A stretch of DNA of 58,812 bases from Bacillota bacterium. GTDB taxonomy: Bacteria > Bacillota > Sulfobacillia > JAJZIM01. The position numbers and the translations under genes were made by a program. Location: assembly GCA_021810565.1 (NCBI GenBank), contig JAJZIM010000014.1, positions 1 through 58,812 of the forward strand. The letters run 5' to 3'. Below are positions 194-53,660 of the stretch, one piece after another (the stretch's first letter is position 1; each line of letters starts with the position of its first letter). Under the pieces are notes generated by a model, which was given only the letters and a program-made list of their open reading frames with translations, ran no database searches and was not told the origin of the DNA.

Positions 194-269
194 TGGTGGC
201 CCAAACGGGAGTCGAACCCGTGTTACCGCATTGAGAGCGCGGCGTCCTAGGCCTCTAGACGATTGGGCC
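194..269 (-). tRNA. tRNA-Glu (CTC anticodon)
   Basis: The 76-base minus-strand gene folds into a full cloverleaf: acceptor GGCCCAA at the 5' end pairs with TTGGGCC before encoded CCA, anticodon stem CCGCG/TGCGG encloses loop CTCTCAA, and the T arm contains GGTTCGACTCC. The anticodon is CTC, which reads GAG. It lies 7 bases downstream of tRNA-Gln and upstream of the 16S promoter, so the two tRNAs are probably made from one transcript. Confidence 0.96.
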
Positions 270-276
270 GCATCGC

Positions 277-350
277 TGGCTGGGGAGGAAGGATTCGAAC
301 CCTCACTGACAGAGCCAGAATCTGTAGTGCTACCTTTACACTACTCCCCA
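277..350 (-). tRNA. tRNA-Gln (CTG anticodon)
   Basis: A 74-base minus-strand cloverleaf: acceptor TGGGGAG/CTCCCCA with encoded CCA, anticodon stem ACAGA/TCTGT and loop TTCTGGC, giving anticodon CTG (codon CAG), T arm GGTTCGAATCC. It follows the selenoprotein gene and gltX on the same strand. The glutamate and glutamine tRNAs beside gltX fit an organism that may charge tRNA-Gln by the GluRS/GatCAB route; the last point is inference. Confidence 0.96.
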
Positions 351-398
351 GCGCGCCGCCTATTATAGCACGGCCCCGGCCGGGGGGCAAGCCGTTTC

Positions 399-716
399 TC
401 AGCGGCAATCCACGCAGGCTGCGGGCAGTTGCACCCCGGAAACCGTCAGGCTGGAGAACCCGAGGATGCGCCGCGTGCGGATCTCCACTCCCTCGGGCAG
501 CACCGGCAACCCGCGGGGCATGAATACCTGCACCCCATCCACCTCGCAGCGCTCGTAGCCCTCCTCCTGCGCCGGGCGGCCCAGCTTCACCGAAGCCGGG
601 ATGACGCTGCCGCCCCCTCAGCCGCCGCTTAGGACCACCGGCGCCAACACGGTCAGCACGCCGCCCTTCTTGCGCACGAACTCTCCCGCCTCCGGCTGCA
701 CGCGCACCTGAGCCAT
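399..716 (-). CDS. small selenoprotein, CC/Se-motif type, with in-frame TGA (Sec33)
   Basis: A 105-residue protein is obtained when the in-frame TGA at 620-618 is read as selenocysteine. The start ATG (716) has a strong ribosome site AAGGAAGGTGG. The residues around the TGA read LSGG-U-GGS, and the C-terminus ends AACVDCR, giving a possible redox-active CxxC. Reading continues in frame without other stops to TGA at 399. A GC-rich hairpin directly follows the UGA. From memory the protein resembles the uncharacterised family annotated as CC/Se motif (seleno)protein in Moorella-like Firmicutes; its function is unknown. It starts 35 bases after gltX and is probably cotranscribed with it. A conventional annotation would start at Met43 (codon at 590) and lose the Sec. 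Confidence 0.85.
574..617 (-). promoter_or_regulatory. SECIS-like hairpin of the CC/Se selenoprotein
   Basis: Immediately after the UGA, GGGCGGC (615-609) pairs with GCCGCCC (580-574), AGC pairs with GCU inside it, and an apical CCG-GCUU-CGG loop caps the structure. Position and size fit a bacterial SECIS element read by SelB. Pairing was found by hand, without an energy calculation. Confidence 0.55.
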
Positions 717-751
717 GCCATCCACCTTCCTTGTTATTTTCTCTCCCCGAA

Positions 752-2224
752 TTATACCACGTTTTCCTCCAACCAGCGCTGCGCCCGCGCCAGCCGGTCC
801 AGCACCCGCTCGCGGCCCAGCAGCTCCAGCAGTTCGAACAGACCCGGCCCCATCGTGCGGCCCGTCACCGCCAGACGCACCGGGTGGATCAACGCTCCCC
901 GCGGCACCCCCCGCGCCGCGGCCAAGTCGCTGAAGGCGGCCTCCAGCGCCGCGGCCGTGAATTCCTCCGCCCCCGCCAGGCGCTCCCGCACGGCGGCCAA
1001 GAGCTCGGCCGCCCCCTCCCCCCGAAAGTGTTTGCGCACACCCTTCTCATCGTAGCCCTCCACCGGGCGGAAGAAGTAGTCGGCCAAGGCGGCCAGCTCC
1101 TCTAGGGTGTGGGCCCGTTCCCGTAAAAGCCCCACCACCCGCTCCAAATACTCCTGTTGCGGTCCCGCCAACTCCTCCGGGATCAACCCGGCGCGCCGCA
1201 GGAAGGGCGTCACGGCCCGGGCCAAAGCGGCGACCGCCATCTCCCGCAGGTAGATGGCGTTGAGCCAGGTCAGCTTCTGCACGTCGTAGACGGCGGCATT
1301 GTGGGTCACCCGCCCCAGGTCGAAATGCGCCACCATGAAGCCGCGGTCCATCTTCTCGGTCACCCCGTCGGGCGACCAGCCCAGAAGGGCCAGGTAGTTC
1401 ACCATGGCCTGCGGCAGAAAGCCCTGCTGCCGGAATTCTTCCAACGAGGTGGCTCCGTGCCGTTTGGACAACTTGGACCGGTCGGGAGCCAGGATCATGG
1501 GCACATGGGCGAAGCGCGGCGGCTCCTCCCCCAGGACCGCATAGAGCAGCAGTTGTTTGGGAGTGTTGGACAGGTGCTCCTCCGCCCGGACCACGTGGCT
1601 TATGCGCATGGCCGCGTCGTCCACCACGCAGGCGAAGTTGTAGGTGGGCATGCCGTCGGACTTCCAGAGGATGAAATCGTCCAGCACGGCGTTCTCGAAG
1701 CTCACCGAGCCCCGGATCAGGTCGTCCACCACCGTGGCCCCCGCCGCGGGAACGCGCAGGCGCAGCACGGGCTCGATGCCCCGCCCTTCCCGGTCGGAAC
1801 GCTCCTGCCGGGAGAGCGCGCGGCAGCGCCCGTCGTAGCGCGGGGGGCGCCCCGCCCGTCGCGCCTCCTCCCGCCGCGCCGCCAGCTCCTCAGGCGTGCA
1901 GTAGCAGGGATAGACCGCGCCCGCCTCCTCCAGTCGGTGCAGGTATTCCCGGTACACCGGCAGGCGCTGGGACTGATAGTAGGGCCCGTAGTCTCCCCCC
2001 CGCTCCGGTCCCTCATCCCAGTCCAGCTCCAGCCAGCGCATTCCCTCCAGAATCCCGCGGGCCGATTCCTCCCGAGAACGCGAGCGGTCGGTGTCCTCGA
2101 TGCGCAGCACCATGCGGCCGCCGTGGTGGCGGGCGAATAGCCAATTGAAGAGCGCCGTGCGGGCACCGCCGACATGCAGAGACCCCGTGGGACTCGGCGC
2201 AAACCGGACCCGGACCTGTGCCAC
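752..2224 (-). CDS. gltX: glutamate--tRNA ligase
   Basis: A cytoplasmic class I aminoacyl-tRNA synthetase that charges tRNA-Glu, and in many Firmicutes also tRNA-Gln before amidation. The 490-residue length is typical. The N-terminus reads RFAPSPTGSLHVGG (HIGH-type signature), and KLSKRHG is the KMSKS loop. A zinc-like cluster CYC appears near residue 108. The start is GTG, giving MAQVRVRFAPSP. A promoter lies just upstream (2283-2255), overlapping the end of bofA. The gene is followed by the small selenoprotein and by tRNA-Gln and tRNA-Glu, which are its likely substrates. Confidence 0.97.
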   Translation of the reverse strand: MAQVRVRFAPSPTGSLHVGGARTALFNWLFARHHGGRMVLRIEDTDRSRSREESARGILEGMRWLELDWDEGPERGGDYGPYYQSQRLPVYREYLHRLEEAGAVYPCYCTPEELAARREEARRAGRPPRYDGRCRALSRQERSDREGRGIEPVLRLRVPAAGATVVDDLIRGSVSFENAVLDDFILWKSDGMPTYNFACVVDDAAMRISHVVRAEEHLSNTPKQLLLYAVLGEEPPRFAHVPMILAPDRSKLSKRHGATSLEEFRQQGFLPQAMVNYLALLGWSPDGVTEKMDRGFMVAHFDLGRVTHNAAVYDVQKLTWLNAIYLREMAVAALARAVTPFLRRAGLIPEELAGPQQEYLERVVGLLRERAHTLEELAALADYFFRPVEGYDEKGVRKHFRGEGAAELLAAVRERLAGAEEFTAAALEAAFSDLAAARGVPRGALIHPVRLAVTGRTMGPGLFELLELLGRERVLDRLARAQRWLEENVV

Positions 2225-2254
2225 CCCGTCACCCCGTTCCCGAGCATTGACACC

Positions 2255-2283
2255 AGTCTAGCAAAGGGGGCCGGCGCGGTCAA
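2255..2283 (-). promoter_or_regulatory. probable gltX promoter
   Basis: Minus strand TTGACC (2283-2278), 17-base spacer, TAGACT (2260-2255), with transcription starting about 25 bases before the gltX GTG. The -35 box overlaps the bofA stop codon. Confidence 0.5.
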
Positions 2284-2561
2284 GGCATCCACACCCGCAG
2301 CGCCACCAGCAGGGCCAGGCCGGGCAAGCCCAAGACCCCCACCAGGAGGACGGTCAGGGGGTTGATGCCTACATGCACCCCGAGGGACGCCCCAGCCAGG
2401 TCCAGGACCCAGATGACCGCCCCTCCCACCGCCGCGCGCCACGCCAAACGCAGCATCCAGCCCAGGGGACGACGCAAGGCGCGCAACAAAAGCAGCGCCC
2501 CCAGGGCGGCCGGGACATACAGTCCGAGCAAGGCGTGGTTCAGGGTGATCCCCCCGACCAT
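2280..2561 (-). CDS. bofA: BofA family pro-sigma-K processing inhibitor
   Basis: A 93-residue membrane protein with two to three hydrophobic segments and the family's C-terminal block VGINPLTVLLVGVLGLPGL. In Bacillus BofA sits in the forespore outer membrane with SpoIVFA and holds the protease SpoIVFB inactive until the mother cell is ready to process pro-sigma-K. It follows yaaL by 27 bases, the usual Firmicutes pairing, although recR, the normal third partner, is not here. The gene implies endospore formation or descent from a spore former. Confidence 0.9.
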   Translation of the reverse strand: MVGGITLNHALLGLYVPAALGALLLLRALRRPLGWMLRLAWRAAVGGAVIWVLDLAGASLGVHVGINPLTVLLVGVLGLPGLALLVALRVWMP

Positions 2562-2588
2562 CCTACGGGACCACCCGCCGGCCTATGC

Positions 2589-2858
2589 CTAGCGCCGGGC
2601 CTGCTTCAGCAGGTACACGTAGCGCCGCTCCGCGGCGTTCAGAAGAAAGATGGCCTGCTCCACCAGATCCGGATCGCTGACGCTCTCGAAGTACCGCCGG
2701 CAGTTCTCCAGCTCCTCGCACGCCTCGCGGGCCAGGGCCCCCGCGTCCCAATCCTTCCCCGCCACTCCCTGCGACGCCCCTTGCCCAGACCAGTCCATGG
2801 CTGCCCACTCCTCTTCAGAAGGTGTGCAGGAAGTGTTCCCATCCTTTGGCTTTGCCAT
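2589..2858 (-). CDS. yaaL: YaaL-like protein (DUF2508)
   Basis: An 89-residue soluble, acidic protein. Its C-terminal half, with the pattern EELENCRRYFESVSDPDLVEQ followed by AIFLLNAAERRYVYLLKQAR, matches the DUF2508 family, a predicted helical hairpin of unknown role found next to bofA across spore formers. The start chosen is ATG at 2858; the longer upstream reading in this frame is antisense to the pyrophosphatase gene and is not believable. The N-terminal 40 residues are low in complexity and poorly conserved in the family. Confidence 0.85.
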   Translation of the reverse strand: MAKPKDGNTSCTPSEEEWAAMDWSGQGASQGVAGKDWDAGALAREACEELENCRRYFESVSDPDLVEQAIFLLNAAERRYVYLLKQARR

Positions 2859-2878
2859 GCATGAGGTCCCCGGGGGCG

Positions 2879-4894
2879 TCAGCGCCGCAGGAACATCGCC
2901 GCGAGGGCCGGTGCCAGCAGCAGGGCCACCACGTTCAGGATCTTGATCATGGGGTTGATGGCCGGACCCGCCGTGTCCTTGCACGGATCCCCCACCGTGT
3001 CCCCCGTCACCGCCGCTGCATGCGCCGCCGTCCCCTTGCCGCCGTAGTTGCCCTCCTCGATGTACTTCTTGGCGTTGTCCCACGCGCCGCCGCCGTTGGT
3101 CATCTGGATGGCCAGGAAGATGCCGGTCACAATGGCGCCCACCAGGAGCCCGCCCAGGGCCACGGGACCCAGGGTGAAACCCACCAGCACGGGTGCCAGT
3201 ACGGGCAGGACTCCGGGCACGATCATCTCCCGCAGGGCCGTGCGGGTCACGATGTCCACCGCCCGCGCGTAGTCGGGTCTGACCCGGCCCTCCCGCAGGC
3301 CCGCCGTCTCCCGGAACTGACGGCGCACCTCCTCCACCACCGCGGCGGCGGCCCGTCCCACGGACTTCAGGCTGAAGGAGGCCAGCAGAAAAGGCAGGAT
3401 GCCGCCCAGAAAGAGGCCCGCGATCACCAGCGGGTCCCCCAGGCTGAAGGTCAGCGGCCTTCCGGCTAGGTGGTCCAGCCGCTGGGTGAACGCCGCGAAC
3501 AAAACGATGGCGGCCAATCCCGCCGAACCGATGGCGTATCCCTTGGTGATGGCCTTGGTGGTGTTGCCCAAGGCGTCCAGGGGATCGGTCACCGCCCGGA
3601 TGGCCGCCTCCTCCCCGCTCAACTGGGCGATGCCGCTGGCGTTGTCCGCGATGGGGCCCAGGGCGTCCATGGCCACCACCAGGCCGGCCAGGGAAAGCAT
3701 GGCCACCGCCGCCACGCCCACTCCGTACAACCCGAAGGGCTGGGCCACGCCGTAAGCCGCCAACATCCCCAGGGCAATGATCAACACCGGCGGCGCGGTG
3801 CTCTCCATGCCCACCGCCAGCCCCGTGATGATGTTGGTGGCGTGGCCGGTTCGGGAGGCGCCGGCGATGGACCGCACCGGCGCGAAGGCGGCCGAGGTGA
3901 AATAGTCCGTGCTCAGGATCAGGGCCAGGGTCACTCCCAGGCCCACCAGGGCCGCCGCCAGCAGCTGTACCCCGCTGAGCGGCATCCCCGCCGGCAGCGC
4001 CCGGGTGACGGCGTAGAAGCCCACCGCCGTCAGGCCCAAGGTCACGGCCACTCCCCGATAGACGCCGTTCATGATCCGGCCCGCCGGCGCGGCGATGGCC
4101 AGGATCCCGGCCAGGGAGGCCAGCGCCGCCACCGCGGCCAGGGCCAGGGGATACCATACGGCCGCCGCCTGATCCGGAAAGAGCAGGTGGCCCAGCACCA
4201 TGGCGGCGATGGCCGTGACCGCATATGTTTCGAACAGGTCGGCGGCCATGCCCGCGTCATCTCCCACATTGTCCCCCACGTTGTCCGCGATCACCGCCGG
4301 GTTGCGAGGGTCGTCCTCGGGGATGCCCTCCTCCAACTTGCCCACCAGGTCCGCCCCCACGTCGGCTGCCTTGGTGTAGATCCCTCCGCCGAGCCGGGCG
4401 AAGATGCTGATGAGGCTCCCGCCAAAGCCGAACCCCAGCAGGGCGGCGGGGTCGCCCCCGGACCAGGCCAAAAGCGCCGCCAAACCCAAAAGCGCCAATC
4501 CCACCACGCTCAGTCCCGTCACGGCTCCCCCGCGCACCGCCACCTGCAGGGCCGCGCCCAAGCCGCTACGGGCCGCCCAGGCCGTGCGCACATTGCAGCG
4601 CACCGCCACGCCCATCCCGATGTACCCGGCCACCCCGGACGAGAGGGCGCCCAGGAGGAAATACAGCGCCTCCCGCCAGCCCAAAAGCCCTCCCAGGAGC
4701 ACGACGACTATTCCGGCCACCCCGGCGATGGTGCGGTACTGGCGGTGCAGAAAGGCGGCGGCACCCTCCTGGATGTCCCGGGCGATGGCCTGCATGCGCG
4801 CGTCGCCCGGCTCCCGCAGCAGCACCCACCGGGCCAAGATCCCTCCCGCCGCCAGGACGGCCAAGGCCACCAGGGCCACCAGCGTCAAAACCAT
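2879..4894 (-). CDS. hppA: membrane-bound proton-translocating pyrophosphatase, K+-insensitive type
   Basis: An integral membrane pump that uses pyrophosphate hydrolysis to export H+. The catalytic loop [20 protein letters not shown] and [15 protein letters not shown], rich in Mg-PPi-binding acids, is clear, and about 16 hydrophobic segments are visible. The segment [10 protein letters not shown] has Lys where K+-dependent enzymes have Ala, which marks the potassium-independent, proton-pumping subfamily. ATG 4894 is preferred because GGGGGGAAA lies 6 bases upstream; an upstream start at 4951 would overlap a terminator. The product is 671 residues. The pump could recover energy from biosynthetic PPi. 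Confidence 0.95.
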
Positions 4895-45884: not shown

Positions 45885-46327
45885 CAGAAGGTTACCGCCA
45901 CGTCGTGGCGGGCCAGCTCCCGGGCCACCTGGGCCAGGGGAACCGGTTCCACGCCCTCGAAGAGGTCTTCCGGTTCCAGCCCTCGGGCGGCGAGGGCGCT
46001 GCGCACCGCCACCACCCGCCCACCCAGGTCCAGGAAGTCCCGGATGAAGCCCGCGTTGTTGGCGTAGCCGATCCCGACGGGATCCTGCTCCCGCAGGGCG
46101 AAGTACACCCCGTCCTCCAACAGGACCAAGGTGGCGTCCCCCTCCGAGGCCAGCACGGCGTTGCCCACCTGGATGGCGCTGTAGCCGTCGTCGTAGCGGC
46201 CGTAGGTGCCGCGGGCCAGGAGGATCAGCACCGAGAAGCTGGCCGGACCGCGGGGCCGGTTCTTCAGCTTCGAGAGGTCGATGACGCATTCGGGGCATTC
46301 CTCGGCAGTCTGGTTCTCGTCGGCCAT
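45884..46327 (-). CDS. DsrE-fold protein, apparently without the usual reactive Cys
   Basis: A 147-residue protein: SFSVLILLARGTYGRYDDGYSAIQ, then TLVLLEDGVYFALREQDPVG and the C-terminal LARHDVAVTF, a DsrE-fold pattern. The position normally holding the active Cys reads VVAVRSALAARGL. The N-terminal extension has ECPEC, a possible metal or redox site. GGGAGG lies upstream of ATG 46327. It could be a structural partner of the neighbouring DsrE in a TusBCD-like ring. Confidence 0.8.
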   Translation of the reverse strand: MADENQTAEECPECVIDLSKLKNRPRGPASFSVLILLARGTYGRYDDGYSAIQVGNAVLASEGDATLVLLEDGVYFALREQDPVGIGYANNAGFIRDFLDLGGRVVAVRSALAARGLEPEDLFEGVEPVPLAQVARELARHDVAVTF

Positions 46328-46343
46328 CGTCGCTACCTCCCTT

Positions 46344-46694
46344 TCAGCCGGTGAAGGTGAGCACCTGATCGGAGCTCTTCAGCCAGTTGATGAAATCGAA
46401 TAGACCTACCTGGGGAATGCCGGGCAGGGTGTCCTCCGGGGTCACGTCCCGGGATTCGGCGCAACGGGCGCACACCTTCACTTCCACCCCCCGCGCCATG
46501 GCCTCCCGCAGCAGTCGTCCCGCATTCTCGTAAGGCTTGTCGGCCTTCACGTGCGGCGCCCACACGCCGTCGATGTAGCAGTACAGGTTAACGGCGTAGC
46601 CCTTCTCCCGGGCCTTGAGGGCCACCTTCAGAGCCAGGTCGGCGTACTCGGAGACGAAGGGTCCCCGGTTGAGCAGCACGGTCAGCGTTTTCAC
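46344..46694 (-). CDS. DsrE/TusD-like sulfurtransferase
   Basis: A 116-residue DsrE-fold protein: KTLTVLLNRGPFVSEYADLAL, VNLYCYIDGVWAP and GVEVKVCARCAESRDVTPED, the last containing the Cys at the position of the active site of DsrE/TusD. GTG 46694 overlaps the stop of the upstream selenoprotein gene (GTGA). Together they appear to form a persulfide or selenopersulfide relay. Confidence 0.85.
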   Translation of the reverse strand: MKTLTVLLNRGPFVSEYADLALKVALKAREKGYAVNLYCYIDGVWAPHVKADKPYENAGRLLREAMARGVEVKVCARCAESRDVTPEDTLPGIPQVGLFDFINWLKSSDQVLTFTG

Positions 46695-47284
46695 AGCACC
46701 ATCACCTTGTCCCACTCCTCCATCACTCGGTCCACCAAGACGTCCAGGGCTTCCTCCACGGCCACGGCCCCCGGCACCAGGCGCTCGGGGGACAGCCCGC
46801 CGGCGCGCAGGTGCGGGGCGCTCACCAGAACCTCGCCGCCGCGGCGCAGCACCGTCTCCAGCTGCTCCGCCGTGGGCCCGTGCTGGTTCCGGCAGGCGGC
46901 CAGCACGCCGTCGCTGAGGCAGAAGATGCAGGCCTGGTCCCCCCAGGCCAGGGCCTCGGCCGCGGTGCCCAAAGCGCTGGCCGCCTCGCCGCCCGGCGGC
47001 TTGGTGAGGATGATGCCCAGGCGGGAAGGCTTGGCCTGATTGATGAGCTCCAGGATCTCCTCGCGCTCCAATTGGCCGTAGGCCGACAACTTGCGGTTGA
47101 CCACCAGGGCCGGAGCGGAACGAACCCCCAGGGACGCCGCCTCGGGCGAGGCCACCGGCAGAAAGCGCACCTCCACCTGCTCGTCGGCCAAGTGGTCCCT
47201 CACAACGTCCACGACGTTTTGCGTGAGGGTGAGTCAGCGCTTTCCGCAGGGCGTGTTGCGGATCACGTCCAGCTGCAGCTTCAT
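46691..47284 (-). CDS. thioredoxin-fold/DsrE fusion selenoprotein (CGKRU, Sec17)
   Basis: Reading the in-frame TGA at 47236-47234 as Sec gives a 197-residue protein from ATG 47284 (AAGGGGG upstream): MKLQLDVIRNTPCGKR-U-LTLTQNVVDVV. Residues 1-75 form a thioredoxin-like fold with Cys13 and Sec17 after the first strand and cis-Pro in SAPALVVNRK. Residues 82-197 are a DsrE-fold domain (ACIFCLSDGVLAACR). The CxxxU spacing is unusual. A very strong hairpin follows the UGA. Without recoding the gene would start at 47212 and lose the redox site. First gene of the seven-gene minus operon. Not a family I can name. Confidence 0.78.
47197..47233 (-). promoter_or_regulatory. SECIS-like hairpin in the thioredoxin-DsrE gene
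   Basis: Four bases after the UGA begins CCCUCAC (47229-47223), which pairs perfectly with GUGAGGG (47203-47197); inside, after a 4-base bulge GCAA, AACGUC-GUG-GACGUU forms a second perfect stem. The bulge, short apical loop and distance from UGA match bacterial SECIS elements well. Confidence 0.75.
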
Positions 47285-48686: not shown

Positions 48687-49022
48687 ATGCGGGAAGTGGT
48701 GGTGGTGCTGCGGGGCCGGCCGCTGGAGCGCGGCTACGGGGCCGAGGCCTGCCGGGTGGCCGTGGGGCTGACCCAGGCCGCCAATCGGCCCACCTTGCTA
48801 TGCCTGGAGGACGGGGTGGAGGCGGTGGGACCGCTGGGCCTCGAGGAGGAGTTGGCGCGGCACCTGTCCCGCTTCGCCCGGCAGGGCGTGGGCTTGGCGG
48901 CGGACGCGGCGGCCCTGGCCGAGCGGAAGCTGACGGCCCAGGTGCCGGACGTCAGGGTGCTGGAGCATGCCGCGTGCCTGGAGCTCTTGGCCCGGGCGGA
49001 CCGGGTGGTGGTCTTCCGGTGA
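48687..49022 (+). CDS. DsrF/TusC-like protein
   Basis: A 111-residue DsrE-fold protein lacking a Cys at the reactive position, as is usual for TusC/DsrF: EVVVVLRGRPLERGYGAEACR, PTLLCLEDGVEAVG and ARADRVVVFR. It follows the DsrE-like gene by 13 bases. A hetero-hexameric ring with its neighbours is the expected structure. Confidence 0.8.
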   Translation: MREVVVVLRGRPLERGYGAEACRVAVGLTQAANRPTLLCLEDGVEAVGPLGLEEELARHLSRFARQGVGLAADAAALAERKLTAQVPDVRVLEHAACLELLARADRVVVFR

Positions 49023-49264
49023 GGCCGGCGATCCTGCACCTTTGGACGCGTCCGGATGATCCGTTGGCCCGGGAGCTTTTGGCGCCGGGGGACTGCGTGC
49101 TGCTGCTGGGGGAGGCGGTGGCGGCCGCGGGTCCCTTCCCGGGAGAGGTTTTCGCCGCCGCCGCCGACGTGCGGGAGCGGGGACTGCAAGTCCCCTGGAC
49201 CCTGGCGGAGTATCGGCAGCTGCCAGAGCTGCTCTTTCGCTGGGAGCGGGTGCTGTGCTGGTGA
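49019..49264 (+). CDS. DsrH/TusB-like protein
   Basis: An 81-residue protein, AILHLWTRPDDPLARELLAPG, DCVLLLGEAVAAAG and ends FRWERVLCW, the size and pattern of TusB/DsrH. GTG 49019 overlaps the DsrF-like stop (GTGA). It completes a TusBCD-like set. Confidence 0.75.
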   Translation: MRPAILHLWTRPDDPLARELLAPGDCVLLLGEAVAAAGPFPGEVFAAAADVRERGLQVPWTLAEYRQLPELLFRWERVLCW

Positions 49265-49278
49265 AGGAGGTGAGAAGG

Positions 49279-49527
49279 ATGAAGCTGTCGGAAAATGCGC
49301 CGGACCGCAGCTTGGACATTCGCGGGGTGGTGTGCCCATATACCCTGATCGACACCCGCGAGGCCTTGCAGGAGATGGATAAGGGGCAGCTGCTGGAGGT
49401 CTGGACCGACTGGGAACCCGCGGTGCTCGAGACGCTGCCCAACTACTGCCGCACCCAGGGATATCCCTGCCAGGTGGTGGACCTGGAAGACGGCACCTGG
49501 CGGGTGCTGATCCGGAAAGGGGATTGA
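49279..49527 (+). CDS. TusA-family sulfur carrier with CPYT motif
   Basis: An 82-residue TusA-fold protein: SLDIRGVVCPYTLIDTREAL, QLLEVWTDWEPAVLETLPNYC and a C-terminal strand. The first Cys is the persulfide carrier; CPYT replaces CPxP. GGAGGTGAGAAGG precedes ATG 49279. It likely exchanges sulfur with the DsrEFH-like complex upstream and with the lipoate protein of the divergent operon. Confidence 0.88.
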   Translation: MKLSENAPDRSLDIRGVVCPYTLIDTREALQEMDKGQLLEVWTDWEPAVLETLPNYCRTQGYPCQVVDLEDGTWRVLIRKGD

Positions 49528-49529
49528 GG

Positions 49530-50945
49530 ATGGCCTTGCCGGAGCTGTACTGCGACGATCCCTTCGAGCGCGGCTTCTACGACCGGGATCTGGCGCCGGT
49601 GCCGGAGGCCTTGGTGCGCCGGCTTTTCCGCACCGTGCCGGATTTGGTGGCCAGACCGCAGGACGGGGAGGGGGTGGCCCGGGTGTTGGAGCGGGCCCGC
49701 CGGGAGGGGCGGGGCGTCACGCCACGGGCGGCGGGCACCAGTGCCTACGGCAACGCCGTGCCCGCCCGGGGGGGCATCCTCCTGGACCTGAACGGTCTCA
49801 GAGGTAGGGCCGAGCTCTTGCCGGAGGCGGGTGCCGTGGCGGTGGACGCGGCCACCCGTTGGGGCGAGTTGGAGCGCTGGCTGCGCCGGCGCGGCTGGGC
49901 GCTGCTGTCCTACCCCACCAGTGCTCCCGGCTCCACCGTGGGGGGCTGGTTCAACCAGCAGGGCTTCGGGGTGGGCAGCCTGCGCCACGGCCGGATGCAC
50001 GAGCAGGTGCTGGCGGCGCGGATCGTGCTGAGCGACGCCCGGGTGAGGGAGCTTGGGCCCGACACGGATCCGCCCCTGGGGTGGTTCGCCGGCAGCGAGG
50101 GGACCCTGGGGGTGGTGACGCGCCTCACCCTGCGGGTGCGGCCGGCGCCGGAGCGGGAGGCCCACCACCTGGTGGCCCTGCCCGACGCGGCGGCCCTGGA
50201 GGACCTGTCCCGGACCCTGGCCGGTTGGGATCCGCCCCCTTTCAGCCTCCATTTTGCCGACGGGGAGTTCCACCGCCTTCTGGAGGAGGCGGGGCATCCC
50301 GCGGCCCAGGGACTCACCCTGCGGGTGGACCTGGACGGATCGGCCGAGTACCTGGAGGACGCCCGAGCGCGGCTGGCATCCGCCGCGGGCTTGCGGGGCG
50401 GGCGGGTCCTGGGCGGTCCCGCGGCCCTGGAGGATTGGCTGGAGCGCTGCTTCGAGGTGCGGGTGAAGCGCGCCGGCCCGGTGCTGGTGGGAGCGGAGGT
50501 GTGGCTGCCCCTGGCCTCCCTGGGACGCTTCCTGGAGGCGGCGCAGGCGGTGGGACGGCGCCGGCGCCGCCGGGTCTTCACCTACGGCACCGTGGCCAGC
50601 CGGGACCACTGTCTGGTCAACGCCTTCTTTCCGGTGGACGCCGTGGGCTGGCGGGAGCTGCCGTCCCTGGGCCTGGTGGAGGAGCTGCAGTCCTGGGGCC
50701 TGCGCCTGGGAGGTCACCCCTACGGCGGGGTGGGCCTTTGGAACGCCCCCTACCGGACGGCCATCCTCTCCGCCCAGGAGCGCGCCGAGCTTTCGCGACG
50801 CAAGGCGCGGTTGGACCCTGGCGGACTGCTCAACCCCGGCAAGCTGTACGCTCCGGCGCATCTTTTGCTGCGCCCCGGGCTGTTCCGGCCGGGCCTGCGG
50901 GCCTTGGGGTCCGTGCGGATATCTGGTCGCCGAGATGGGTCTTAG
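49530..50945 (+). CDS. GlcD-like FAD-binding oxidoreductase
   Basis: A 471-residue flavoprotein of the VAO/PCMH class: RGVTPRAAGTSAYGNAVPARGG and SAPGSTVGGWFNQQG for FAD_binding_4, and a C-terminal oxidase domain ending RLDPGGLLNPGKLYAP. It resembles glycolate/D-lactate dehydrogenase GlcD, whose electrons pass to a GlcF-type Fe-S protein like the one in the divergent operon. The substrate is unknown; context suggests lipoate-bound sulfur or a hydroxyacid. ATG 49530 is used, with TTG 49524 (TTGA overlap) as alternative. Confidence 0.88.
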   Translation: MALPELYCDDPFERGFYDRDLAPVPEALVRRLFRTVPDLVARPQDGEGVARVLERARREGRGVTPRAAGTSAYGNAVPARGGILLDLNGLRGRAELLPEAGAVAVDAATRWGELERWLRRRGWALLSYPTSAPGSTVGGWFNQQGFGVGSLRHGRMHEQVLAARIVLSDARVRELGPDTDPPLGWFAGSEGTLGVVTRLTLRVRPAPEREAHHLVALPDAAALEDLSRTLAGWDPPPFSLHFADGEFHRLLEEAGHPAAQGLTLRVDLDGSAEYLEDARARLASAAGLRGGRVLGGPAALEDWLERCFEVRVKRAGPVLVGAEVWLPLASLGRFLEAAQAVGRRRRRRVFTYGTVASRDHCLVNAFFPVDAVGWRELPSLGLVEELQSWGLRLGGHPYGGVGLWNAPYRTAILSAQERAELSRRKARLDPGGLLNPGKLYAPAHLLLRPGLFRPGLRALGSVRISGRRDGS

Positions 50946-53121
50946 GGGTCGGGTACTGCTCCTCTTGGGGGCGGTGTTGGCCTTGACCATCGCCGCCGGC
51001 GTGCTGCTGATCATGGCCGAGGTCCGCGCGGACCAGCGGCACCAGTACCGGCTGCAGGGGGCCCACGTGCTGTCCATGTTGGACGAGGCCGCCGCCGACC
51101 TGCAGGTGGGGAAAGACAGGGCGGCGGCCGCTCGCGCGGCCTTCGCCCGGGCGGCCTTTCCCGACGTGCGCCGGGTTTCGGTGCGCCTGCCCTCGGGCCA
51201 GGAGGTCGCCGCGGGGCCGCCGGTGCGGCCGGGCTGGCTGGCGGTGCGGGGAGCGCTTCCCGGCGGCGGGCGCGGCGCGGTGTACCTATCCCGTAATCGG
51301 GAGGACGCCCTGCTGCGCGCGGATGCCGAGCGCTGGGCGGCATGGGGGCTGGGCGGGCTGGTCCTGGCCACCGGTGCCGCCTACTGGGCCCTGGACCGGC
51401 TGCTCCTGCGGCGGCTCCATGGGCTGCGCCGGGCGGTGCAGCGCATGGCGGCGGGGGAGCTGGGGGCGGCCCTGGCACCTTCCGGCACCGACGAGCTGGC
51501 CCAGGTGGAGGAGGACGTGGAGCGGCTGCGGCGCACCTTGGGGGAGCGGCTGGCGGAGCTTTCCCAGCGGGAGGAGGACTTTCGCACCGCGGTGGCCTCC
51601 CTGGCGGAGGCGGCGGCGGGCCGCCTGCCCCTGCGCCAGCGTTGCGCCCACATCCTGGAGGCCACGATCCGGGCCACTCGCGCTCAGACGGGCGCCTTCT
51701 ACCTGGCGGGCCAGCCGGGGGAGCCACTGGAGGCGGCGGCGGTGCGGGGGGTGCCGGCCCGGGCCTTCAATCCGGCGGTGCTGCGCCGGGAGGGCCGCAG
51801 CCACGATCCGGTCTTCTGGCGGACGGGAGGCGAAGACGAGTTCGGCCTGGGGATCCTGCTCTTCGCCGGCAGCCGCGAGTTGGCGGCCCTCTTGGTGGCC
51901 CGCCGGGCGGCTCCCTTCGGGTCTGCCGAGGGAGAGGTGTTGCGGGTGCTGGCCGATCAGGCCGCCGTGGCCCTGGAGAGCGCCCGGCTCGAGGCGACTA
52001 TGGAGGAGCACCTGCGGGAGGATCCGGCCACCGGTCTGCCGAACTACCGGGAGATGGAGGAGTTCCTGCGCCAGCGGATCGACCGCGGTGAGGGGCTGGC
52101 CCTGGTGCTCTTGGACATCGATCACTTCCGCCGGCTCAACGCGCGCCTCGGACGGCCCACCGGGGACGCCGTTCTGCGTCGGCTGGCCCGCCGGGTGCGA
52201 CTGGCGGCAGGGCCTGCGGATCTGGTGGCCCGGGTGGGAGGGGACGATTTGGCGGTGGTGCTGCCGGGAGCCGGCGAAGCGCCGGCCTGCCTGGCCGCCG
52301 AGCGGCTGCGCTCGGCGGTGGAGGAGATGGCCTGGGGGGAGCTGTTGGAGCCGGAGGAGAGGATCACCGTCTCCGCGGGCATGGCCTTCTTCCCCGCCTC
52401 GGCGGACAGCTACTCCCGCCTGGTGCAGGCGGCGGAAGACGCCCTCTTCGCTTCCAAGCTGCTCGGGGGCAACTGCGTATCGAGCTACCAGCCGGCCTAC
52501 GCCGCCCTGAAGGAGTTGGACCCCGCCCAGGTGCAGCAGCAGCTGCGGGGCGGCGATCCGCAGACGGTGCGGGTGCTGGCCGCGGCGGTGGACCTGCGCG
52601 ACGCGTACACGGCTCGCCACGGCGCGGTCATGGCCGCTCTGGCCGCCGCGGTGGGCCGGCGCCTGGGCCTGTCGGCCGCGGAGCAGTCTTCCCTGCGCAC
52701 CGCCTGCCTTTTGCACGACGTGGGCAAGATCGGCGTCCCCGATCACATCCTGGGCAAGCGCGGGCCGCTCACCGCGGCGGAGCGGCGGGTGATGAACGGC
52801 CACGCCCAGATGGGGGCGGAGTTGATCGGGAACCTTTCCGCCCTGGCGGCCGCGCGCCTGGGCGTGCTGCACCATCACGAGCGTTGGGACGGCCAAGGCT
52901 ATCCCGAAGGCCTGGCCGGCGAGGCGATACCGCTCTTGGCGCGGGTGGTGGCGGTGATCGACGCCTATGAAGCCATGACCTCGGATCGCCCCTACCGCTC
53001 GGCCATGGACCCGGCGGCGGCGGTGGCGGAGGTGGAGGTCCATGCCGGCACGCAGTTCGACCCGCGGGTGGTGCGGGCCCTTTTGGAGGAGCTGGCGGCG
53101 CGGGAGGCCCGGACCGGATGA
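50935..53121 (+). CDS. membrane GAF-GGDEF-HD-GYP signalling protein
   Basis: A 728-residue c-di-GMP protein. Transmembrane helices near residues 8-28 and 138-158 flank an extracytoplasmic domain; then HAMP (160-212), GAF (about 225-365), GGDEF (375-525) and HD-GYP (540-725). The cyclase signature reads GGDDL, so synthesis may be weak or lost. The phosphodiesterase keeps LLHDVGKIGVPDHI and HHERWDGQGYPEGL. ATG 50935 overlaps the GlcD-like gene by 11 bases and the next gene overlaps its stop, so it is cotranscribed with the sulfur operon and may sense its state. Confidence 0.9.
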   Translation: MGLRGRVLLLLGAVLALTIAAGVLLIMAEVRADQRHQYRLQGAHVLSMLDEAAADLQVGKDRAAAARAAFARAAFPDVRRVSVRLPSGQEVAAGPPVRPGWLAVRGALPGGGRGAVYLSRNREDALLRADAERWAAWGLGGLVLATGAAYWALDRLLLRRLHGLRRAVQRMAAGELGAALAPSGTDELAQVEEDVERLRRTLGERLAELSQREEDFRTAVASLAEAAAGRLPLRQRCAHILEATIRATRAQTGAFYLAGQPGEPLEAAAVRGVPARAFNPAVLRREGRSHDPVFWRTGGEDEFGLGILLFAGSRELAALLVARRAAPFGSAEGEVLRVLADQAAVALESARLEATMEEHLREDPATGLPNYREMEEFLRQRIDRGEGLALVLLDIDHFRRLNARLGRPTGDAVLRRLARRVRLAAGPADLVARVGGDDLAVVLPGAGEAPACLAAERLRSAVEEMAWGELLEPEERITVSAGMAFFPASADSYSRLVQAAEDALFASKLLGGNCVSSYQPAYAALKELDPAQVQQQLRGGDPQTVRVLAAAVDLRDAYTARHGAVMAALAAAVGRRLGLSAAEQSSLRTACLLHDVGKIGVPDHILGKRGPLTAAERRVMNGHAQMGAELIGNLSALAAARLGVLHHHERWDGQGYPEGLAGEAIPLLARVVAVIDAYEAMTSDRPYRSAMDPAAAVAEVEVHAGTQFDPRVVRALLEELAAREARTG

Positions 53122-53660
53122 CCGACTGGCACGCCCGCCTGGGGGTGCGGCCGGGCGCCGACGCGGCGGAGCTGCGGCAGGCGTACCGCTTGCTGGTGCA
53201 CTTGTACCACCCGGACAAGCACCGCGGCACCTCGGGAGAGGCCCAGGCCTGCGCGCGCCTGCGGGAGGTGACCGAGGCCTACCACGAGCTGCGGCGGCGG
53301 GCGCCGCGAGGGCGGCGGGGCGGACCTGCCGGCTGGCTGCGTTTCCGATGGCGGGGGGAGGAGGTGGCCTTGGGCCTGGAAGGGGTGCGGGAGGTGGCGC
53401 CCCGCGGGACGCTGCGGCAGCTTCCCGGAGCGGGTCCTCCCTTCGGCGGCTGGCTGGAGCTTCGGGGAGAGTTGCTGCCGGTGGTGGTGCCCCCGGGGCG
53501 GCAGGGGTGGCGCTGCGTGCTGATCCTGGAGCAAGCCGGGCGGTGCTGGGGGATCGCCCTGGAGGACCTGCCCCGGCTGGAGACCGGAGGCGAGCCGGGT
53601 ATGACCGTCCGCCGGGTGGAACCGCAGGAACTGCGGGGGGAGGAGACGGCCCCGGACTAG
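53118..53660 (+). CDS. J-domain protein fused to a CheW-like domain
   Basis: A 180-residue protein. Residues 1-65 are a J domain (DWHARLGVRPGADAAELRQA, with the HPD motif in LYHPDKHRG) that would stimulate a DnaK ATPase. Residues 75-165 look like CheW: VALGLEGVREVAPRGTLRQL, then GWLELRGELLPVVVPPG and CWGIALEDL. CheW domains couple receptors to CheA kinase. The fusion is not a standard architecture. ATG 53118 overlaps the signalling protein stop (ATGA), suggesting a scaffold or chaperone in that pathway (inference). Confidence 0.75.
   Translation: MTDWHARLGVRPGADAAELRQAYRLLVHLYHPDKHRGTSGEAQACARLREVTEAYHELRRRAPRGRRGGPAGWLRFRWRGEEVALGLEGVREVAPRGTLRQLPGAGPPFGGWLELRGELLPVVVPPGRQGWRCVLILEQAGRCWGIALEDLPRLETGGEPGMTVRRVEPQELRGEETAPD

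Follow-up and report, generated by a model that had tools for sequence, protein, structure and literature searches.

The window, the whole 58,812-nucleotide stretch of Bacillota DNA that was analysed, contains a 180-residue open reading frame with an ATG start on the forward strand (53118–53660, +), which we refer to as J-CheW. Its product consists of a J domain (residues 3–62; 53124–53303, +), a truncated CheW-like domain (residues 74–149; 53337–53564, +) and a tail without CheW similarity (residues 150–180; 53565–53657, +). The J domain matched Pfam PF00226 (DnaJ) with 42.1 bits (E = 9e-11, cut-off 27.8), was also found in the genome search with PF00226, and resembles the PDB J domains of Escherichia coli DnaJ (1bqz) and CbpA. 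The translation reads LYHPDKH around the HPD motif, which is intact at residues 31–33 (53208–53216, +). The CheW-like domain was delimited by profile and alignments and matched Pfam PF01584 with 30.3 bits (E = 4e-7, cut-off 23.5); the J and CheW domains are both above the curated Pfam cut-offs. DnaJ and CheW were the only Pfam domains detected in the protein, with no G/F region, no C-terminal substrate-binding domains as in class A and B DnaJ proteins, and no receiver domain as in CheV. The NCBIfam DnaJ_bact model scored 37.6 bits against a cut-off of 377. Two NCBIfam adenylosuccinate lyase models, NF006504 and NF006502, also match the J domain (window 53118–53300, translated) at the C-terminal end of the models, which hints that these models include a J-like stretch.

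The relationship of the second half to CheW was examined with an independent profile made from eight other CheWs, J-CheW itself being left out. The CheW half scored 29.6 bits, compared with a maximum of 5.0 bits among 5000 shuffles, and when the profile was applied to 511 ORFs of the window the runner-up after J-CheW reached 5.2 bits. A chance match through biased composition is thus ruled out by both the shuffled sequences and the window's own ORFs. Alignment of the CheW half to CheWs with hhalign gave an E-value of 2e-6, and identity to other CheWs is only 25–29%. Two AlphaFold runs on the single sequence without an alignment gave a pLDDT of 36. Codon scores were 0.403 for the J half and 0.288 for the CheW half, with every other frame negative. 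These values are inside the range of the five neighbouring genes used as the reference, where trusted segments had a minimum of 0.248 and a median of 0.381. The GC3 of the CheW half was 0.86, against 0.97 for the J half.

The CheW domain is incomplete, spanning positions 3–86 of the 138 in the PF01584 profile. Alignments to full CheWs showed that ∼8 residues are missing after the β4–β5 hairpin, together with the last third of the domain, and that similarity stops after a strand ending near residue 149. J-CheW therefore does not have the two five-stranded subdomains of a complete CheW; the part that has been lost is presumably mainly from subdomain 1. We found neither an internal stop nor a frameshift in the gene, and a frameshift hiding the rest of CheW was rejected as the three frames after residue 150 show nothing CheW-like. 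The original prediction was of an N-terminal, HPD-containing J domain followed by a CheW-like fold. The first element was confirmed in full. For the second, similarity to CheW was upheld by PF01584, the shuffles and hhalign, but the domain proved to be truncated and residues 150–180 are not CheW.

Within the part that is kept, Glu92 and Arg116 correspond to Glu38 and Arg62 of E. coli CheW and are invariant in the alignment; in E. coli this pair forms a salt bridge that keeps the sites for receptor and kinase aligned with each other (PMC3828127). Arg116 is inside the segment GGWLELRGELLPVVV (residues 109–123; 53442–53486, +), which aligns with, and is the putative counterpart of, β4–β5 of CheW, the strands contacting CheA P5 (PMC6952110). 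It is nonetheless doubtful that J-CheW behaves as a normal CheW, bridging receptor and CheA, because the domain is truncated. Since about a third of the domain is absent, the CheW part may fail to adopt the CheW fold, or may no longer bind partners.

The ATG of J-CheW overlaps the stop of the upstream gene (50935–53121, +) by 4 nt in an ATGA arrangement; the overlap itself was noted in the original prediction, which had described that gene as encoding a GGDEF/HD-GYP, c-di-GMP protein. The description was correct: the product is a membrane protein with two hydrophobic segments and HAMP, GGDEF and HD-GYP domains, plus a weak, sub-threshold match to GAF. The HD-GYP motifs are intact (HDVGK and HHERWDGQGYP) and the GGDEF signature reads GGDDL, which suggests that the protein is likely to be a c-di-GMP phosphodiesterase with a non-canonical cyclase domain. 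The gene overlap provides a weak link between J-CheW and this protein. None of the HD-GYP orthologues in the loci inspected has a J or CheW gene alongside. At one locus of the class (L195 in genome G038, 232–4208), a full-length cheW and then the beginning of cheA come after a GAF-GGDEF-HD-GYP gene, and HD-GYP next to cheW thus occurs elsewhere in the class.

The neighbours of J-CheW are a FAD oxidase gene and the HD-GYP gene, with GH15, NAD synthase and RtcB genes downstream; the last three say nothing about its function. Relatives of the GH15 gene occur in 50 genomes of the class, and neither HD-GYP nor J-CheW was present beside them at any of seven loci inspected. No chemotaxis gene adjoins J-CheW. 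Many CheWs are orphans, so a position outside a chemotaxis cluster is not decisive.

The genome itself (G000) encodes chemosensory and chaperone components. It has four CheW matches: two full CheWs, a CheA and J-CheW. The CheA, on contig C53, has all five domains (Hpt, P2, dimerisation, ATPase and CheW), and a CheC/CheX-like gene and a chemoreceptor are located near it. There are seven MCP signalling matches, six of them above the cut-off, nine J-domain matches, one full-length DnaK and two partial HSP70 matches. Among the CheWs of the genome, the lone CheW on contig C107 is closest to the CheW half of J-CheW (19.2 bits), followed by that on contig C53 (14.8 bits). The score to the P5 domain of the genome's CheA was −1.4 bits, and a derivation of the CheW half from CheA P5 is not supported.

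We searched for other proteins with the same domain order using the full J-CheW protein as query against 154 genomes of the class, 393 genomes of the window's phylum and 345 genomes of the phylum around a Desulfobacterales genome, and using the CheW half against 398 genomes of the window's phylum. A further search of 388 genomes produced the same three matches at the same coordinates as the 393-genome sample, with which it overlaps. Overall, about 900 distinct genomes were searched; for the 345-, 388- and 393-genome searches, results refer to the matches listed with E < 1e-8. GTDB contigs were scanned twice with degenerate patterns, which detect close relatives only. No second J-CheW fusion was found in the ∼900 sampled genomes, the two GTDB contig scans, viral contigs or plasmids, and among the CheW-encoding ORFs of the retrieved loci J-CheW alone has an HPD motif. 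Viral contigs also yielded no CheW genes for a structure alignment.

Several candidates for a second fusion were rejected. Among the matches listed, none of the J proteins of 130–400 residues from the class, a second phylum or the window's phylum was fused to CheW; these were DnaJ/CbpA types, proteins with TPR or Cys-rich tails, zinc-finger-like proteins and membrane J proteins. The three loci from the second GTDB scan had DnaJ-type or Cys-rich-tail J genes, all without a CheW domain. Literature searches joining 'DnaJ domain' with 'CheW domain' found no description of the combination. J-CheW is a singleton from one assembly, and its not being found elsewhere is not the same as its being absent. 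The suggestion in the original prediction that this architecture had not been described is in agreement with the literature searched, and the search for the same domain order that it proposed gave no further example; at the level of sequence, the J and CheW combination is real and apparently undescribed.

J-CheW can be compared with several known systems. Like class C (DnaJC-like) J proteins, it has an N-terminal HPD J domain, no G/F-rich or zinc region, and then a different domain; it differs in that its targeting domain is CheW-like, a type for which we found no example, whether described or sequenced. CheV likewise joins a CheW adaptor to a second domain, but there the second domain is a C-terminal receiver, whereas in J-CheW it is an N-terminal J domain attached to a truncated CheW. 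FrzB of Myxococcus xanthus is, like J-CheW, a CheW-like protein with strands missing: it is a divergent natural CheW that is without β4–β5 and fails to bind its CheA (PMC6952110). J-CheW is the opposite case, having kept the kinase-docking strands and lost the C-terminal third. In hormogonia of Nostoc punctiforme, the Hsp70 system DnaK1/DnaJ3 is associated with a motility apparatus (PMC9239167), which resembles the role proposed here for J-CheW. In N. punctiforme, however, the association is with type IV pili and the secretion of polysaccharide, and a CheW domain is unreported (PMC9239167).

The targeting domain of a class C J-domain protein decides where Hsp70 acts. The most natural reading of J-CheW is that it would recruit DnaK to a signalling complex. 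More specifically, we tentatively favour a J protein of class C that would deliver DnaK to the chemosensory array by means of its CheW remnant, and whose amount would be tied to that of the HD-GYP protein. The J domain would recruit and stimulate DnaK, and the CheW remnant, with its CheA-docking hairpin and salt-bridge pair, would hold the complex at the array through CheA P5, CheW or the receptor tips. DnaK could then help in array assembly, remodelling or turnover. Translation of J-CheW right after the membrane HD-GYP phosphodiesterase would tie the amounts of the two proteins together.

This reading is consistent with the CheA, chemoreceptors and DnaK encoded in the genome, and with a precedent in E. 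coli, where CheA is a client of the Hsp90 protein HtpG and the interaction is lost without DnaJ and CbpA (PMC3708813). Because the CheA–HtpG interaction needs DnaJ/CbpA, a route from a J protein to CheA has a precedent. The CheW domain itself has been reported exclusively from chemosensory systems (PMC10782961). The order of HD-GYP, cheW and cheA genes at locus L195 also speaks for this reading. A bolder version, which we consider possible but unlikely, is that J-CheW represents a new class of chaperone adaptor, in which a CheW-derived module docks DnaK on the array and expression is coupled to a c-di-GMP phosphodiesterase; this would tie array assembly and folding state to the level of the second messenger.

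Two rival explanations stay alive because the CheW domain is truncated and J-CheW has no relatives. The first, which is credible enough to be weighed although we think it rather unlikely, is that J-CheW serves its operon partner: the CheW remnant would be off the array, binding the HD-GYP protein or another client for folding, assembly or removal by DnaK. The 4-nt ATGA overlap, the absence of chemotaxis genes nearby and a CheW that is missing its last third would all fit such a role, as would the short and varied tails, for example Cys/His-rich ones, that J domains of the class often carry. Retention of the salt-bridge pair and the CheA-docking hairpin is harder to reconcile with it, a gene overlap is by itself weak evidence of interaction, and the inspected loci of HD-GYP orthologues have no adjoining J or CheW gene.

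The second rival is a fusion that is young or in decay and has no settled function, in which a J gene captured a piece of cheW, or a fusion lost its CheW 3′ end. That only one example is known and that its CheW is truncated would be expected of such a gene, and the CheW half is slightly below the J half in both GC3 and codon score. Even so, the CheW half has a codon score in the range of the neighbouring genes, and the reading frame has neither a frameshift nor an internal stop. Moreover, the key CheW residues are kept at 25–29% identity, which suggests long constraint and not recent capture, and we regard this explanation as improbable. An assembly chimaera joining a J gene to a cheW gene is very improbable: the genome is a single assembly split into 115 contigs, and its contamination is estimated at 2.55%, but the frame is continuous, both halves share native composition with the flanking genes, and the deletion within CheW lies away from the junction.

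If J-CheW works as it looks, in recruiting DnaK to the array, it would connect protein folding and chemosensory signalling physically and directly. To our knowledge, general J proteins are so far the only route by which chemotaxis is known to depend on chaperones. A fusion occurring in nature would identify the partner and show that the coupling is direct. It would also indicate what portion of CheW is enough for targeting and provide a small tool with which to ask whether Hsp70 acts on assembled arrays. Its value is limited while it is known from one species and by sequence.

Several further features were noted in the retrieved loci. Short J proteins with a Cys/His-rich, B-box-like tail, some with membrane helices, turn up repeatedly in the class (loci L006, L007, L011, L013, L017, L022, L037, L039, L041–L043 and L045–L050). 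At L008–L010, L094, L259 and L260, the J proteins have a middle part that is short or TPR-like and a C-terminus very rich in cysteine. Proteins of ∼490–575 residues with apparently at least two CheW domains in tandem are encoded at L070, L071, L072, L087, L088 and L093. One in-frame TGA was present in each of two genes: an HD-GYP paralogue in the genome of J-CheW (G000:C48:14751–16007, −) and a GH15 relative (L227, G041:C125). The window also has a sulfur-relay-like neighbourhood, comprising genes for a protein with a weak thioredoxin and DsrE match (46691–47212, −), a DsrE protein (45887–46378, −), a weakly DsrE-like protein (48687–49022, +) and a TusA protein (49255–49527, +).
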